DNA of 64,000 nucleotides, taken from assembly GCF_021026295.1 (NCBI RefSeq), contig NZ_JAJNDA010000011.1:1-64000 (forward strand). Direction: 5' to 3'. Position numbers and translations under genes: made by a program. This DNA is from Actinomycetospora soli (GTDB taxonomy: Bacteria; Actinomycetota; Actinomycetes; Mycobacteriales; Pseudonocardiaceae). A model generated the notes under the pieces. That model was not told where the DNA came from, did not search any database, and saw nothing but the letters and a program-made list of their open reading frames with translations. Positions 26,798-34,953 of the stretch are shown piece after piece; within the stretch, counting starts at the first letter, position 1; each line of letters begins with the position of its first letter.

Positions 26798-27880
26798 GTG
26801 TCGTGACCCGTCACGTTGTTAGCAGGCGAGGCGGGTGATCGGTGGTTGGCCGCCGAGGGCGGAGTGGGCGCGGCGAGTGTTGTAGTCGTGGACCCAGCTG
26901 TCCAGGGCGGCCAGCCGCGCGGAGTTGCTGGTCCAGGGCCGGGCGTAGGCGAACTCGGTGAGCAGGGTCCGGTTGAGCCGCTCGACCTTGCCATTGGTCC
27001 AGGGACAGCCGGGCTTGATGAACCGGCGGCGGATGCCGAGGGCGACGCAGACCGCGGCCCAGTTCCGGCCGCGGCGGTAGGCCAGGGCGTTGTCGGTCAG
27101 GACCCGTTCGACGGTGACCCCGCGGGTCCGGAACCAGGTCGCGGCGCGGTGCAGGAACCCAGCACAGGTCAACTCCCGCTCGTCGGGCTGCGCTTCGATG
27201 TAGGCCAGCCGCGAGTGGTCGTCGATCGCGACGTGCAGGTAGTCATAGCCGTTGCCGCGACCGCGGACCGCTTCGCTGCGCCCGTGCAGCCGCCACCCGC
27301 CGCCGTCAGGGACCCGGCCGAGCTTCTTGACGTCGACGTGGAGCAGCTCGCCAGGGCGGGAGCGTTCGTAGCGCTCGCCGCTGTGGCGACGCCGGACCGG
27401 CTCGCCGGTGATCGGGTCGATCGCCGAGAGCGCCGGCACCTGGTGGCGGCGGAGGATCCGTCCGACGGTGGAGGCGACCAGCCCGAGCTCGCCGGCCAGG
27501 AACACCGGACCGCGGTGACGATCGCGGCGCAGCTCCAGGACCTGGGCCTCGACCTCGTCGGCGGTGCGCCGCGGCATGGTGTGCGGGCGCGAGGGTCGGT
27601 CCTCGAGACCGGCTTCGCCGTCGGTGTCGTAGCGGTGGATCCACTTCGCGACGGTGCCGCGGGAGACCCCGAGCTGCTCGGCGATCCGGGCTTGCGGCCA
27701 CCCGGCTTGGTAGCGGTGCACGATCAGCAGGCGCGCGTGAACGGTCAGACGGGCATTACGGTGCGGCACCGAGGGCCTCCGGTGGTCGAGATGGATGCGT
27801 CAGACACACCCACCTCGCCTCGGAGGCCCTCCTCGATCAACCCGACACGCCGCCGCACACAACGTCTCGGGTCACGACAC
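26798..27880. mobile_element. IS481-family insertion sequence, 1083 bp
   Basis: The left end GTGTCGTGACCCGTCACGTT and the reverse complement of the right end agree at 18 of 20 positions, so these are the terminal inverted repeats. One transposase fills the element on the minus strand. The ends are intact and flanked by CTAG, and the transposase frame is complete, so the element may be recent and active. It lies between the permease stop codon and a 32-base palindromic terminator. Confidence 0.92.
26819..27769 (-). CDS. IS481-family transposase
   Basis: A 316-residue DDE transposase. Residues 1-55 hold the helix-turn-helix (ARIAEQLGVSRGTVAKWIHRY), 60-120 a second winged region, and 135-310 the rve core. 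The catalytic residues are probable: Asp in GELLHVDVKKLG, Asp in VERVLTDNALAY and Glu in WTNGKVERLNRTLLTE. The sequence starts at GTG 27769 and ends with RRAHSALGGQPPITRLAC in the family manner. No frameshift is visible. Confidence 0.93.
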   Translation of the reverse strand: MPHRNARLTVHARLLIVHRYQAGWPQARIAEQLGVSRGTVAKWIHRYDTDGEAGLEDRPSRPHTMPRRTADEVEAQVLELRRDRHRGPVFLAGELGLVASTVGRILRRHQVPALSAIDPITGEPVRRRHSGERYERSRPGELLHVDVKKLGRVPDGGGWRLHGRSEAVRGRGNGYDYLHVAIDDHSRLAYIEAQPDERELTCAGFLHRAATWFRTRGVTVERVLTDNALAYRRGRNWAAVCVALGIRRRFIKPGCPWTNGKVERLNRTLLTEFAYARPWTSNSARLAALDSWVHDYNTRRAHSALGGQPPITRLAC

Positions 27881-29559: not shown

Positions 29560-29984
29560 GGGCGCGGCCTTCCTGGGCTGCATCGACGATGACGGGACGG
29601 TCAGCCTACGGTGGTTGTGGCGGCGGTCATACCGTTCGCGTCCGCAGGTGGTCCTGTGACCGGATCGACTGTGACCCGGGTGACGAACCAGGACTACCGG
29701 GCGCCCACCTGCGGGGACATTCCGCGGTCGGGCGGAGTGGCTCCCGTTCGCCTTGACCGACCCCGGGACCTGTGTGAATCTCGGAGCACGGAAATCGACG
29801 CACGTGACGTGCGACGGAGCCGCCGAGTGGCGCTGCAACGGGCCTCGCGCCCGCCACGCTCGGTGGATTCCGCACCATCGCAAGGGCGCCTCAGGACGGT
29901 GGAGGACCGTGCCCGAGGCCCGGCGGTGAACCGGGCCGATGACGCGGTCGTACCACTCAACCCACGACGAGCGGACGAGGAGTC
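29560..29984. other. 425-base intergenic region with divergent promoters and riboswitch
   Basis: It separates the acyl-CoA ligase start from ahcY. Besides the SAH aptamer at 29820-29890 it holds a Gly/Cys-rich stretch after the aptamer (CCCGAGGCCCGGCGG then ACCGGGCC near 29908-29938) that can form the expression-platform hairpin GGCCCGG/CCGGGCC. GAGGAG at 29974-29980 is the ahcY ribosome-binding site. No coding frame is convincing. Confidence 0.6.
29820..29890 (+). promoter_or_regulatory. probable S-adenosylhomocysteine (SAH) riboswitch
   Basis: About 95 bases before ahcY. P1 pairs 29820-29827 with 29859-29866 (8 pairs including one G-U). The conserved strand GGCGCTGCAA (29829-29838) follows, then P2 CGGGC/GCCCG (29839-29843 with 29849-29853) and the CCACGCTCGG strand. 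A pseudoknot pairs GGCGC (29829-29833) with GCGCC (29886-29890). The published SAH aptamer of Ralstonia has the same order with GAGCGC pairing GCGCUC, so the pseudoknot covaries. SAH binding turns on ahcY in known cases. Two bases of the consensus differ (GA to TG, and CAGG to CACG). Confidence 0.75.
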
Positions 29985-31469
29985 ATGGCAGCAGTAGGCA
30001 CCACGCACGAGAAGTACGCCGAGAAGAACGGGATCGACTTCGCGGTCGCCGACCTCTCGCAGGCCGACTTCGGCCGTCGCGAGATCCGGCTCGCCGAGCA
30101 CGAGATGCCCGGGCTGATGGCCCTGCGGCGCGAGTACGCCGAGGCCAAGCCGCTGCACGGCGCCCGCGTCTCCGGCTCGCTGCACATGACGATCCAGACC
30201 GCGGTGCTCATCGAGACGCTGGTCGAGCTCGGCGCCGAGGTCCGCTGGGCCTCCTGCAACATCTTCTCCACCCAGGACCACGCGGCCGCCGCGGTCGTCG
30301 TCGGCCCGCACGGGACCCCGGAGGAGCCGAAGGGCATCGCCTGCTTCGCCTGGAAGGGCGAGACGCTGGAGGAGTACTGGTGGTGCGCCGAGCAGATGCT
30401 CGCCTGGCGTGACGCCGACACCCGCGGCCCGAACATGATCCTGGACGACGGCGGCGACGCCACCATGCTCGTCCACAAGGGTGTCGAGTTCGAGCAGGCC
30501 GGCGTCGTGCCGACCACCTCGGACGAGGACCCGGCCGAGTACGGCGTCGTCCTCGAGACGCTGCGCCGCTCGCTCGCCGAGGACCCGCAGCACTGGACCA
30601 AGGTCGCGTCCGGCATCAAGGGCGTCACCGAGGAGACCACGACCGGCGTCCACCGCCTGTACGAGTTCTTCGAGCAGGACAAGCTCCTGTTCCCGGCGAT
30701 CAACGTCAACGACTCGGTCACCAAGTCGAAGTTCGACAACAAGTACGGCTGCCGCCACTCGCTCGTCGACGGCATCAACCGCGCCGTCGACGTGCTGATC
30801 TCCGGCAAGAAGGCCGTCATCTGCGGTTACGGCGACGTCGGCAAGGGCTCGGCCGAGTCGCTCGCCGGCCAGGGCGCCCGCGTGACGATCACCGAGTCGG
30901 ACCCGATCTGCGCGCTCCAGGCGCTCATGGAGGGCTACGACGTCCAGACCCTCGACAACGTGATCGAGACCGCCGACATCGTCATCACGACGACCGGCAA
31001 CAAGGACATCGTCACCCTCGACCACATGAAGCGGATGAAGCACCAGGCGATCCTGGGCAACATCGGCCACTTCGACAACGAGATCCAGATGGAGAAGCTG
31101 GAGCGCTCGGGCGACGCCCAGCGGCTGAACATCAAGCCGCAGGTCGACGAGTGGCGCTTCCAGGACGGCCACTCGATCATCATCCTGTCCGAGGGCCGGC
31201 TGCTGAACCTCGGCAACGCCACGGGCCACCCGAGCTTCGTCATGTCGAACTCGTTCGCGAACCAGACGATCGCGCAGATCGAGATCTTCACCAAGCCCGG
31301 TGAGTACCCGGTCGGCGTCTACCGTCTGCCGAAGCACCTCGACGAGAAGGTCGCGAAGGTGCACGTCGAGGCGCTGGGCGGCGAGCTGACCAAGCTCACC
31401 AAGGACCAGGCCGAGTACATCGGCGTCGACGTCGAGGGCCCGTACAAGCCGGAGCACTACCGCTACTAG
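29985..31469 (+). CDS. ahcY: adenosylhomocysteinase
   Basis: Hydrolyses S-adenosylhomocysteine to adenosine and homocysteine, relieving product inhibition of methyltransferases. The 494-residue sequence has the substrate region [39 protein letters not shown] with the catalytic Lys, the NAD loop [15 protein letters not shown], and [20 protein letters not shown], ending PEHYRY. The mycobacterial-type insertion (QEADAT-like region around [19 protein letters not shown]) is present. ATG 29985 is preceded by GAGGAG. The upstream SAH aptamer predicts induction by SAH. A 15-pair terminator hairpin follows at 31554-31588. Confidence 0.97.
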
Positions 31470-31714: not shown

Positions 31715-32419
31715 GTGGGTGTTCTGGTGGCCGTCGAAGGGCTGGACGGGGCGGGCAAGGCGACCCTGGTGGCCGCCCTGCGGCGCTGCGCCGAGGCCCG
31801 CGGAGCCACCGTCGACACGATCGCGTTCCCCCGCTATGACGACGACGTCCACGCCGCGCTCGCGGGTGAGGCGCTGCGCGGCGCCCACGGCGACACCGGC
31901 GCGTCGGTGCACGCCATGGCGCTGCTGTTCGCCCTCGACCGACGGGGCGCCCGGGCCGAGCTCGCCACCCGCCGTCGGGGCTGCGACCTGCTGCTGGTCG
32001 ACCGCTACGTGGCCTCGAACGCGGCGTACGGCTCGGCGCGCGTGCACGAGACCCTCGGGCCCTTCGCGCAGTGGGTGCACGCCACCGAGATCGAGCGCTT
32101 CGGGCTCCCCGTGCCCGACGCCCAGGTGCTGGTCCGCGTCCCGCCGGACCTCGCGGCGCAGCGGGTCCGCGACCGTGCGGCGCAGCAGCCCGAGCGGGCG
32201 GCGGACGGGTTCGAGGCCGACGCCGCCCTGCAGGGCCGGTGCGCCGCGGTGTACGACGCCCTGGTCACGGAGCAGTGGCTGGCACCCTGGTGGGTGTCGG
32301 ACAATCGGCAGTCGGGGGATGAAGCGCTCACCCGTACGGCTGACGCGGTCCTGGATGCCGTGCTGGGCGACGCATTCGCTCCCGGATCGTCGGTGAGAAG
32401 TGACACCATTGAGACATGA
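31715..32419 (+). CDS. tmk: dTMP kinase
   Basis: Phosphorylates dTMP to dTDP. The 234-residue protein opens VLVAVEGLDGAGKATLVAALR with a P-loop (GLDGAGKAT; Ala where Ser/Thr is common), and the DRY motif is in LLLVDRYVASNAAYGSAR. The lid region DRAAQQPERAADGFEADAAL is present. TAGCGT at 31701-31706 lies eight bases before GTG 31715, so the transcript is probably leaderless. The stop overlaps the mtrA ATG. Order sahH-tmk-mtrA-mtrB-lpqB is the mycobacterial order. Confidence 0.94.
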   Translation: MGVLVAVEGLDGAGKATLVAALRRCAEARGATVDTIAFPRYDDDVHAALAGEALRGAHGDTGASVHAMALLFALDRRGARAELATRRRGCDLLLVDRYVASNAAYGSARVHETLGPFAQWVHATEIERFGLPVPDAQVLVRVPPDLAAQRVRDRAAQQPERAADGFEADAALQGRCAAVYDALVTEQWLAPWWVSDNRQSGDEALTRTADAVLDAVLGDAFAPGSSVRSDTIET

Positions 32420-33093
32420 GTTCCCGAATCCTCGTCGTGGACGACGACTCCTCGCTCGCCGAGATGCTGACGATCGTCCTGCAGGGCGAGGGGTTCGAGA
32501 CGACCGTCGTCTCCGACGGGGCCGAGGCGCTGCCGACCGTCCGGGAGGCGGCCCCGGATCTGGTGCTGCTCGACCTGATGCTCCCGGGCATGAACGGGAT
32601 CGACGTGTGCCGCGCGATCCGGGCGGAGTCCGGGGTGCCCGTCGTCATGCTGACCGCGAAGACCGACACGGTGGACATCGTGCTCGGCCTGGAGTCGGGT
32701 GCGGACGACTACATCGTCAAGCCGTTCAAGCCGAAGGAACTGGTCGCCCGGATCCGGGCCCGGCTGCGGCAGTTCCCGGCCGAGCCGAGCGAGCAGATGC
32801 AGATCGGGGACGTGACGATCGACGTGCCGGCGCACCAGGTGCGCCGGGGCGGCACCCCGATCCCGCTCACGCCGCTGGAGTTCGACCTGCTCGTCGCCCT
32901 GGCGCGCAAGCCGCGGCAGGTGTTCACCCGCGAGGTGCTGCTCGAGCAGGTGTGGGGCTACCGGCACGCCGCCGACACGCGGCTGGTGAACGTCCACGTG
33001 CAGCGGCTGCGCTCCAAGGTGGAGAAGGACCCGGAGCACCCCGAGGTGGTGCTCACGGTGCGCGGTGTCGGCTACAAGGCCGGACCGCCCTGA
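32416..33093 (+). CDS. mtrA: response regulator MtrA
   Basis: OmpR/PhoB-type response regulator of 225 residues, the partner of MtrB, controlling cell division and envelope genes in actinobacteria. Receiver residues 1-115 start SSRILVVDDDSSLAEML; the phosphoacceptor is D53 in LLDLMLPGMNG, with Lys in IVKPFKPKEL. The winged-helix effector (about 130-225) contains LTPLEFDLLVALARKPRQVF and TRLVNVHVQRLRSKVE. The ATG overlaps the tmk stop region by 4 bases, so the two are coupled. Sequence is close to the mycobacterial protein. Confidence 0.97.
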   Translation: MSSRILVVDDDSSLAEMLTIVLQGEGFETTVVSDGAEALPTVREAAPDLVLLDLMLPGMNGIDVCRAIRAESGVPVVMLTAKTDTVDIVLGLESGADDYIVKPFKPKELVARIRARLRQFPAEPSEQMQIGDVTIDVPAHQVRRGGTPIPLTPLEFDLLVALARKPRQVFTREVLLEQVWGYRHAADTRLVNVHVQRLRSKVEKDPEHPEVVLTVRGVGYKAGPP

Positions 33094-33123
33094 TCGGCAT
33101 GACCCCCCGCCCCGGCGCGCGCC

Positions 33124-34953
33124 GTGGCTGACCGTCTCGCCGGGCTCCGCCGCCGCGCCGAACTGGCCCTCGCGGAGCGGGTCGGCGCCGTCCGCGTGCT
33201 GTGGCGGCGCTCGATGCAGCTGCGGGTGGTGCTGTCGACGGTCGCGATGTCGACCGTCGTCGTCCTCGTGCTCGGCCTGGTGCTGCAGACCCAGATCGCC
33301 GACCGGCTGCTCGAGGGCAAGGAACAGGCCGCCCTGGTGCAGGCCGACATCAGCCGCGGCAACCTGGAGCGCGACCTCGCCCGCGTCGACCCCGATCGCG
33401 ACGGCACCCAGGCCACCCTCGACGAGGCCCTCGACGGGCTGACGTCGTCCGGCTCGGGCTCCGACCGGGACGCCGGGGCGTTCGAGGCGGTCCTCGTCGC
33501 CGGCACCGAGGCGATCGGGACGCCGGGGGCCTCCGGGGGCGGCGGCTCCGGCACCGACCCGTCGTCGGGACCCTCCGGCGTGGTGCCCCCGCAGCTGCGC
33601 GCCCCGGTGCTCAAGGGGTTCCTCGCCACCAAGTACGTGACGGTCAGCCAGGGCGGACGGCCGGACGTGCCGGCCTACGTCGTCGGGCAGCCGGTGCGCA
33701 CCGCGGGTCGGAACCTCCAGCTGTACCTGATCTTCCCGCTCTCGGCCGAGCAGCGGACGCTGGCGCTGATCCAGTCGACGCTCGCCCTCGCCGGGCTGGC
33801 GCTGCTGGGCCTGCTCGCGGGCATCTCGAGCATCGTCACGCGGCAGGTCGTGCGGCCGGTCCGCCAGGCGGCCGACGTCGCCGAGCGGTTCGCCGACGGG
33901 CACCTCGACGAGCGCATGCCGGTCTACGGCGACGACGAGGTGGCCCGGCTCGCCGAGTCCTACAACGAGATGGCCGCCAGCATCCAGCAGCAGATCCACC
34001 AGCTCGAGGAGTTCGGGGCGCTGCAGCGGCGGTTCACCTCCGACGTCAGCCACGAGCTGCGGACGCCGCTGACGACGGTGCGCATGGCGGCGGAGGTGCT
34101 GCACGCGCAGGCGGAGGACATGGATCGCATCGCCCAGCGGTCGGCCCAGCTGCTCGTCGACGAGCTGGACCGCTTCGAGTCGCTGCTCGGCGACCTGCTC
34201 GAGATCAGCCGGCTCGACGCCGGGGTGGCCGAGCTCGCCGTCGAGCAGGTCGACGTGCGCGACGTGGTGCGCCGCGCCGCCGAGACCGTGCGGCACCTGG
34301 TCGACGACACCGCGACGCCGCTGCTGCTCGACCTCACCGATCTCGCCGTCGCCGAGGTCGACCCGCGCCGGGTCGAGCGCATCCTGCGCAACCTGCTGGC
34401 CAACGCGATCGACCACGGCGAGAGCCGCCCGGTGGAGGTGCGGGTGGCCGCCGACGACCACGCCGTGGCCGTCGTGGTCCGCGACCACGGGGTGGGGCTC
34501 AAGCCCGGCGAGGCCGGGCTTGTCTTCAACCGGTTCTGGCGCGCCGACCCCTCCCGCCAGCGCCGCAGCGGCGGCACCGGCCTCGGCCTCGCCATCAGCC
34601 TCGAGGACGCGCGGCTGCAGGGCGGCTGGCTGCAGGCGTGGGGCGAGTCCGACCACGGGGCGGTGTTCCGGCTGACGCTGCCGCGCACCGCCGGGGACCT
34701 GCTGCGCACGAGCCCGCTCCCGCTGATCCCCGTCTCCGCCGCCCCCGCCGAGGCCGAGCCCGGCATCCACGAGGCGGCCGGCACCACGGGCACGGCGCTG
34801 CCCCCGCCGGAGACCGGCGAGTTCGCGGTGGTCGTGCCCGAGGAGCTCGGGGACCCGTCGTCGGGATCGGGATCGGGATCGGGATCGGGATCGGGGTCGG
34901 AGACCGAGCGCAGCGGAGCCCGACCACCGGGACTGCCCGAGGACGCGCGGTGA
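33124..34953 (+). CDS. mtrB: sensor histidine kinase MtrB
   Basis: Membrane sensor kinase of 609 residues. Topology: basic N-terminus, TM1 at about 35-60 (VVLSTVAMSTVVVLVLGLVL), an extracytoplasmic region of some 150 residues, TM2 at about 215-240, HAMP, then HisKA with SHELRTPLTTVR (His310) and HATPase with NLLANAIDHGES, DHGVGLKPGE and GTGLGLAIS. A Pro/Gly-rich cytoplasmic tail contains six Gly-Ser repeats encoded by a hexanucleotide microsatellite. It follows mtrA by 30 bases and overlaps lpqB in GTGA. It phosphorylates MtrA in response to envelope or division-linked signals. Confidence 0.96.
   Translation: MADRLAGLRRRAELALAERVGAVRVLWRRSMQLRVVLSTVAMSTVVVLVLGLVLQTQIADRLLEGKEQAALVQADISRGNLERDLARVDPDRDGTQATLDEALDGLTSSGSGSDRDAGAFEAVLVAGTEAIGTPGASGGGGSGTDPSSGPSGVVPPQLRAPVLKGFLATKYVTVSQGGRPDVPAYVVGQPVRTAGRNLQLYLIFPLSAEQRTLALIQSTLALAGLALLGLLAGISSIVTRQVVRPVRQAADVAERFADGHLDERMPVYGDDEVARLAESYNEMAASIQQQIHQLEEFGALQRRFTSDVSHELRTPLTTVRMAAEVLHAQAEDMDRIAQRSAQLLVDELDRFESLLGDLLEISRLDAGVAELAVEQVDVRDVVRRAAETVRHLVDDTATPLLLDLTDLAVAEVDPRRVERILRNLLANAIDHGESRPVEVRVAADDHAVAVVVRDHGVGLKPGEAGLVFNRFWRADPSRQRRSGGTGLGLAISLEDARLQGGWLQAWGESDHGAVFRLTLPRTAGDLLRTSPLPLIPVSAAPAEAEPGIHEAAGTTGTALPPPETGEFAVVVPEELGDPSSGSGSGSGSGSGSETERSGARPPGLPEDAR
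34863..34898 (+). repeat. GGGATC hexanucleotide microsatellite in mtrB
   Basis: Five perfect GGGATC units (34863-34892) and one GGGGTC unit encode alternating Gly-Ser in the MtrB tail. Length change by whole units would add or remove Gly-Ser pairs without a frameshift. Confidence 0.9.

Follow-up and report, generated by a model that had tools for sequence, protein, structure and literature searches.

SAH riboswitches of the Ralstonia type (Rfam entry RF01057) lie ahead of ahcY in beta- and gamma-Proteobacteria and are built in the order P1, core GCGCUGCAA, P2, CCA and pseudoknot strand. The available part of one report gives ahcY and metF as the core SAH regulon of Proteobacteria, with metH in Comamonadaceae (PMC4239095). 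In the Ralstonia SAH complex, according to the available part of its description, G15, C16 and A29 surround the adenine and C46 is located at or near the homocysteine tail of SAH (PMC7057144). The SAM/SAH riboswitch RF01727 also senses SAH (PMC7367207, available part) and is reported to precede metK in Rhodobacterales (PMC2864571, available part).

The locus compared here with these systems is contained in a stretch of 64 000 nucleotides from Actinomycetospora soli, a member of the Pseudonocardiaceae (contig NZ_JAJNDA010000011.1, positions 1–64 000, forward strand), referred to below as the window. Positions 29820–29890 carry P1, the core GGCGCUGCAA, P2 and a GGCGC/GCGCC pseudoknot in SAH riboswitch order, followed on the same strand by ahcY, the start of which lies 94 nt beyond the 3′ end of the pseudoknot. 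A preliminary description of this DNA had placed an 8-pair P1, the core, P2 and this pseudoknot here in the order of the Ralstonia aptamer, and every one of these elements was recovered in its place. Ralstonia position numbers (G15, C16, A29, 30 and 46) are used for the equivalent window bases. In the list below R3 is a covariance model built from 58 actinobacterial sequences, none of them from Actinomycetospora, and A2 is an alignment of 58 rows selected from 79 loci outside the genus, the remainder having been dropped by eye as similar.

29819–29898, + strand: whole SAH aptamer as matched by Rfam (RF01057, 33.2 bits, E = 1.7 × 10−4; R3, 68.6 bits)
29820–29827, + strand: 5′ strand of P1, pairing with 29859–29866; both sides change in five of the nine P1 pairs of A2
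29829–29838, + strand: core GGCGCUGCAA, from the sequence
29829–29833, + strand: 5′ pseudoknot strand GGCGC, partner 29886–29890; both sides change in three of the six pairs of A2
29834–29838, + strand: core UGCAA, aligned to RF01057, with the G15 and C16 equivalents at 29835–29836
29839–29853, + strand: P2 hairpin of five pairs (29839–29843 with 29849–29853); both sides change in three of the five (A2)
29856–29857, + strand: equivalent of the conserved A29, then position 30 (C; Rfam consensus G), from the RF01057 and actinobacterial alignments
29859–29866, + strand: 3′ strand of P1, from the sequence and the RF01057 alignment
29884, + strand: position 46 (G; Rfam consensus C), from the RF01057 alignment and A2
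29886–29890, + strand: 3′ pseudoknot strand GCGCC, from the sequence, the RF01057 alignment and A2
29985–31469, + strand: ahcY, adenosylhomocysteinase, the presumed regulated gene (TIGR00936, 623 bits against a cut-off of 497.6; PF05221, 490.5 bits)

One of the eight P1 pairs is G–U. The equivalents of G15, C16 and A29 are kept at 29835, 29836 and 29856 in the RF01057 alignment. The outermost (sixth) pseudoknot pair is U·U in the window (29828/29891) and A–U, G–U or G–C in other actinobacterial copies; this position is unpaired in 17 of the 41 distinct rows of A1, an alignment of 42 rows taken out of 48 loci from the genus and the top of the family. The window copy thus has its target gene, the order of its elements and all 78 of the 78 model positions in common with the Ralstonia type, whereas it differs in having C30/G46 for G/C, other outer pseudoknot pairs and a score below the Rfam gathering score.

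The covariance-model check that had been proposed for the locus was run on positions 29580–30050 (471 nt) as a permissive scan. RF01057 aligned over its full length (model positions 1–78 of 78) to 29819–29898 at 33.2 bits (E = 1.7 × 10−4), though below the gathering score of 37; with gathering scores applied to the entire window, Rfam returned no match. The gathering score is a search threshold, passed by four of the 18 copies from the genus, all four ahead of ahcY, and by a match in 135 of 390 genomes of the family. RF01727 gave no match in 29580–30050 at E values up to 10. Genome-wide, the window copy was the best RF01057 match, the runner-up reaching 20.1 bits, i.e. 13 bits lower. With R3 the window scored 68.6 bits (E = 8 × 10−13) and the runner-up 24.7 bits (E = 0.034), the E values of the custom models R2 and R3 being rough; all 18 Actinomycetospora copies were found by R3 at 55.2–75.5 bits. 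R2 gave the window 78.9 bits, a score that proves little because the window sequence itself was used in building that model.

RF01057 matched at E ≤ 0.1 in 18/18 Actinomycetospora genomes, A. soli included, with best scores per genome of 29.7–38.6 bits, and in all 18 the best match immediately preceded ahcY, in sense orientation; one of these copies shares a contig with the A. lemnae copy L029. Across the family RF01057 matched at E ≤ 0.01 in 274 of 390 genomes. The preliminary description had made the assignment depend on matches in this and related genomes, and such matches were found; the novelty it saw in an actinobacterial copy is weaker for the same family counts and for the report of SAH riboswitches in Mycobacteriaceae (Sun et al., 2013; PMC3766115, available part). 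R3 at E ≤ 1 × 10−5 was found in 286/390 family genomes and 23/46 genera, a partly circular count as some of these genomes supplied R3 sequences. In the class, R2 at E ≤ 0.001 was found in 74 of 394 genomes, and members outside the family had contributed nothing to R2. These comparisons establish, at the level of sequence, the window RNA as a homologue of the SAH aptamer that is kept directly ahead of ahcY in 18/18 genomes of the genus.

The wider surveys gave narrower results. Named ahcY loci were examined as the best 80 of at least 597 stretches, two of the 80 having fewer than 320 bases upstream. Among these best 80 the aptamer was present in A. lemnae alone, the next scores being 19.8 bits (R2) and 14.7 bits (R3); in this sample, an aptamer ahead of ahcY thus appears as a trait of part of the actinobacteria and not of the group at large. 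In the phylum R2 matched at E ≤ 0.01 in 10/296 genomes, five of which were the A. soli genome and four of the same order. The other five matches were weak (27.7–34.8 bits) and RF01057 at E ≤ 0.05 matched at none of these five loci; spread beyond the class is not claimed.

The pairing itself was assessed on A1 and A2. P1, P2 and the pseudoknot together with a 30/46 pair were 95.6% paired on both alignments, as compared with 24.6–44.3% for slid versions (A2), and for five covariation measures 0/500 shuffles were as high on any of them (A1 and A2). Changes on both sides were present in five P1, three P2 and three pseudoknot pairs of A2; U–A replaces C–G at the inner pseudoknot pair in 13 A2 sequences. 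The shuffles ignore relatedness and the counts are accordingly support and not probabilities. The minimum-energy fold of the leader, which cannot represent a pseudoknot, was as stable as those of shuffled sequences (z = 0.14).

The preliminary description had also pointed to two core substitutions. These are present, CCACG standing for CCAGG and CAAGGG for CAACGG of the Rfam consensus (C at position 30, G at position 46), but they are not peculiar to the window: C30/G46 was found in every row of A1 (42 rows, 41 distinct) and in 58/58 rows of A2, so that the exchange is the norm among the actinobacterial copies aligned. The departure from the consensus G30/C46 was not treated as excluding because copies that pass the Rfam threshold share the exchange, e.g. 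L109 at 51 bits. The exchange from G/C to C/G is reciprocal and therefore suggests that positions 30 and 46 form a pair, the exchanged state being invariant within the sample. The proteobacterial side of the comparison is provided by the Rfam consensus and a single Burkholderia glumae copy in which position 46 is aligned beside an inserted base. The exchanged bases amount to a double mutation of the binding pocket provided by nature, with which tail recognition would be simple to test. Four named ahcY loci on plasmids (one of them actinobacterial), taken from 81 matching records, were also tested with RF01057; at E ≤ 0.01 a match was absent from all but that of B. glumae, where ahcY on plasmid pBGF2 has its own RF01057 match ahead of it (L196:810–879, 55.2 bits).

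Target genes were read at 79 loci outside the genus, comprising the 30 best matches in the family, the 29 best in the class and 20 picked from further class matches. The gene following the aptamer was metH at 64 loci, ahcY at 11, a MOSC-domain protein gene at two, and a methyltransferase gene and an adenosine deaminase gene at one each; most of these targets belong to the SAH cycle. metH was named from the N-terminal sequence, two cases being checked against Pfam and NCBIfam over the gene start alone, and L155, for which the listed reading frame is another one, was counted with its near relatives. In A. soli the best MetH-like match (36% identity) is on contig C55, on which R3 gave no match at E ≤ 10. 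The aptamer of the adenosine deaminase locus (L163:465–1575, − strand; TIGR01430) lies directly ahead of the gene and scored 66.6 bits with R2, a model built without this locus; RF01057 gave no match there at E ≤ 0.05, and GCCUCC/GGAGGC is found over the Shine–Dalgarno (SD) sequence. Adenosine is the second product of AhcY, and the deaminase removes it.

Eleven of the copies read belong to one family (f2) that is probably Mycobacteriaceae. They share the window's bases at 30 and 46, but ten of them, all from one genus (g47), precede metH and one a methyltransferase gene, in contrast to ahcY in the window, and the ten have a GGCGU/ACGCC pseudoknot in place of GGCGC/GCGCC. At the two MOSC-domain loci, L109 (51 bits) and L113 (45.5 bits), the aptamer is at 1501–1576 and a cobalamin riboswitch lies further downstream (682–863 and 2212–2393, respectively); the MOSC frame of L109 ends after 129 amino acids. 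At L162:658–1576 (− strand) the aptamer precedes a class I methyltransferase gene (PF08241).

Outside Actinomycetospora, CCUCC, CCUUCC or a similar stretch adjoins the 3′ end of the pseudoknot strand, and a short loop separates it from a complementary SD-like stretch. At 64/64 metH, 11/11 ahcY and 4/4 other loci, the last part of the pseudoknot strand and the sequence just downstream can form a helix of at least six pairs; the corresponding fractions in composition-shuffled sequences were 0.39, 0.24 and 0.31. Its 3′ arm, judged by eye, spans the SD-like stretch wholly or partly. Because the helix includes the last nucleotides of the pseudoknot strand, helix and pseudoknot compete. SD openness was modelled with the pseudoknot strands blocked for 27 of the 64 metH and ten of the 11 non-genus ahcY leaders. 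In the metH leaders the mean modelled openness went from 0.01 without the pseudoknot to 0.26 with it, rising by more than 0.2 in 19; in the ahcY leaders it went from 0.00 to 0.11, with a rise of this size in one. Blocking the strands costs 7.8–26.4 kcal mol−1 in all of the leaders modelled, the gain from pseudoknot and ligand being uncounted. The modelling supports translational ON switching of metH, and an SAH-dependent switch of this kind, in which the pseudoknot opposes an SD-burying hairpin, is likely in other actinobacteria. Among the 11 ahcY copies from outside the genus, an ahcY frame was at hand for eight (all except L116, L118 and L126), and in seven of these eight the likely ATG is at least 85 nt after AAGG, though the hairpin adjoins the aptamer; a long leader is therefore not peculiar to Actinomycetospora. 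At L124 and L136 a short frame that starts after the aptamer-side SD was seen by eye to overlap the ahcY start at its end, a possible case of translational coupling.

The window copy further differs from the Ralstonia type in having 94 nt between pseudoknot and ahcY, and it is without the SD hairpin of the other actinobacterial loci read. The following features of its leader lie outside the aptamer.

29753–29758, + strand: candidate −35 element TTGACC of a putative ahcY promoter; TTGAC at a fixed place in 18/18
29776–29781, + strand: possible −10 element GAATCT, proposed together with the candidate −35
29799–29813, + strand: conserved dyad CGCAC-N5-GTGCG, downstream of the presumed transcription start and just ahead of the aptamer
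29909–29914, + strand: candidate anti-pseudoknot strand GUGCCC, pairing with GGGCGC (29884–29889), most of the pseudoknot strand
29977–29982, + strand: ahcY SD sequence GAGGAG; GAGGAG or a near variant before ATG in the genus

A strict σ70 scan found nothing. The dyad arms are identical in 18/18 sequences of the genus, with a spacer of 3–5 nt, and the dyad is a candidate RNA hairpin or operator. The leader from AAGG to ATG measures 103–178 nt in the genus, and in the window the ahcY SD is 86 nt beyond the pseudoknot strand. An SD hairpin of at least six pairs was present in 9/18 genus copies, the level of shuffled sequences, and modelled openness of the ahcY SD was equal with and without the pseudoknot (0.45 versus 0.47). 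In seven copies from the genus a GGAGG is retained close to the aptamer, and the modelled openness of this GGAGG was likewise unchanged (0.28 versus 0.27).

The helix formed by GUGCCC with the pseudoknot strand had six pairs in 17/18 genus copies as compared with 0.20 of shuffles. In A3, an alignment of 17 of the 18 genus loci (L022 was left out), 99.0% of its cells were paired against 31–69% for slid versions; all of the variation was one-sided (G–C/G–U) and none two-sided, and the shuffle control did not discriminate (500/500), so that support for the helix is moderate. This conserved helix may replace the SD hairpin in Actinomycetospora. Three other leader features were considered and set aside. 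Many genus copies have an open frame from +17 after AAGG; the phase of this frame relative to ahcY varies among them, which speaks against an AhcY leader peptide or N-terminal extension, and its GC content by codon position (0.746/0.681/0.722, compared with 0.683/0.448/0.972 in ahcY) speaks against coding. A P3-like stem CACCAUC/GAUGGUG seen by eye around the genus pseudoknot strand has a central mismatch in two groups of sequences, and a second helix, GACCGUG with a downstream CACGGUC, has seven pairs in 13/18 copies but also in 0.44 of shuffles; neither is claimed.

Taken with the RF01057 match (below cut-off), R3, the conservation ahead of ahcY in 18/18 genomes and the covariation, all of which uphold the reading of the element as an SAH aptamer, the leader is very probably a cis-acting SAH riboswitch that would raise ahcY expression when S-adenosylhomocysteine builds up. 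SAH would dock beside the pseudoknot and stabilise it, so that the 3′ strand GCGCC (29886–29890) is held; without SAH, GUGCCC (29909–29914) would capture GCGCC in an anti-pseudoknot hairpin and ahcY expression would be lower. In Actinomycetospora the ahcY SD is more distant (86 nt in the window copy), so that the last step there may be translation, Rho-dependent termination or RNA stability. The score below the gathering threshold, G46, a fold at shuffle level and, in the genus, the SD hairpin at shuffle level and the unchanged SD openness were counted against the riboswitch, as were the small modelled change in the ten non-genus ahcY leaders, the energy cost of blocking the strands, the purely one-sided variation of the anti-pseudoknot helix and the negative terminator search.

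For Actinomycetospora, an action chiefly on transcription, by Rho-dependent termination or by RNA decay in the long leader, instead of on the ahcY ribosome-binding site has a little under an even chance. It shares the aptamer with the reading just given and differs in the last step only. The SD hairpin at shuffle level, the unchanged modelled openness of the ahcY SD and the leader of 103–178 nt from AAGG to ATG are what such a mode would lead one to expect, but a search for a terminator-like site or intrinsic terminator found none, and long leaders between aptamer and ahcY are also present in genera that keep the SD-like hairpin.

It is improbable that the aptamer of the genus is a relic that still folds while its platform has been lost and ahcY is constitutive. 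The SD hairpin at shuffle level would fit a relic, as would a platform for which there is at present a candidate only; however, a relic would be expected to lose its core, and the invariance of the core in 18/18 copies, next to a downstream leader of widely differing length and sequence, therefore counts against it, as does the existence of a conserved anti-pseudoknot helix. Preferential binding of an SAH relative (SAM, adenosine or another compound) owing to the changed position 46 is likewise improbable. The Ralstonia complex has C46 close to the homocysteine tail (PMC7057144, available part), and all aligned actinobacterial copies have G at this position; against this, the change is reciprocal with that at position 30, as expected if pairing keeps the geometry, the G15, C16 and A29 equivalents are unchanged and the targets are mostly genes that remove SAH or use homocysteine. 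A chance resemblance or a transcription-factor site in DNA is strongly disfavoured, for although a DNA dyad lies just upstream (29799–29813) and the Rfam score is below cut-off, the rough R3 E value of 8 × 10−13 and the compensatory changes in P1, P2 and the pseudoknot speak for RNA.

With the SAH riboswitch as the preferred reading, a broader proposal can be put forward tentatively, as somewhat less than an even prospect: that actinomycetes possess a distinct SAH riboswitch lineage in which positions 30 and 46 are exchanged, which would mainly control metH, with ahcY, adenosine deaminase and other genes as lesser targets, and in which the aptamer would have been retained and the platform rebuilt, as an anti-SD hairpin overlapping the pseudoknot in most lineages and, in Actinomycetospora, as an anti-pseudoknot hairpin located about 100–180 nt from the start codon. 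SAH acts as an inhibitor of methyltransferases, and many of the natural products of actinomycetes are methylated. Should the proposal hold, both the removal of SAH and the remethylation of homocysteine would be under direct control by SAH in a large part of the family, and one aptamer with different platforms would illustrate the rewiring of riboswitches within a single family. The class of sensor is already known, its frequency in the family and its wiring to the gene less familiar. Among the matches listed, mostly from outside subscription papers, titles and abstract openings contained nothing on SAH riboswitches in Actinomycetospora, nor on actinobacterial ones preceding metH or adenosine deaminase; no claim to priority is made. 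What is fresh is how widely the aptamer occurs within a single family, the invariant exchange at 30/46, a target set centred on metH and the altered platform of Actinomycetospora.

The surroundings of ahcY in the window were also annotated. Upstream, an IS481-type integrase-core transposase gene (26819–27769, − strand) lies beside a divergent gene for an AMP-binding, acyl-CoA synthetase-like protein. Downstream, at 31715–34953, ahcY is followed by genes that Pfam assigns to thymidylate kinase, response regulator and histidine kinase, an order known from mycobacteria as tmk–mtrA–mtrB.
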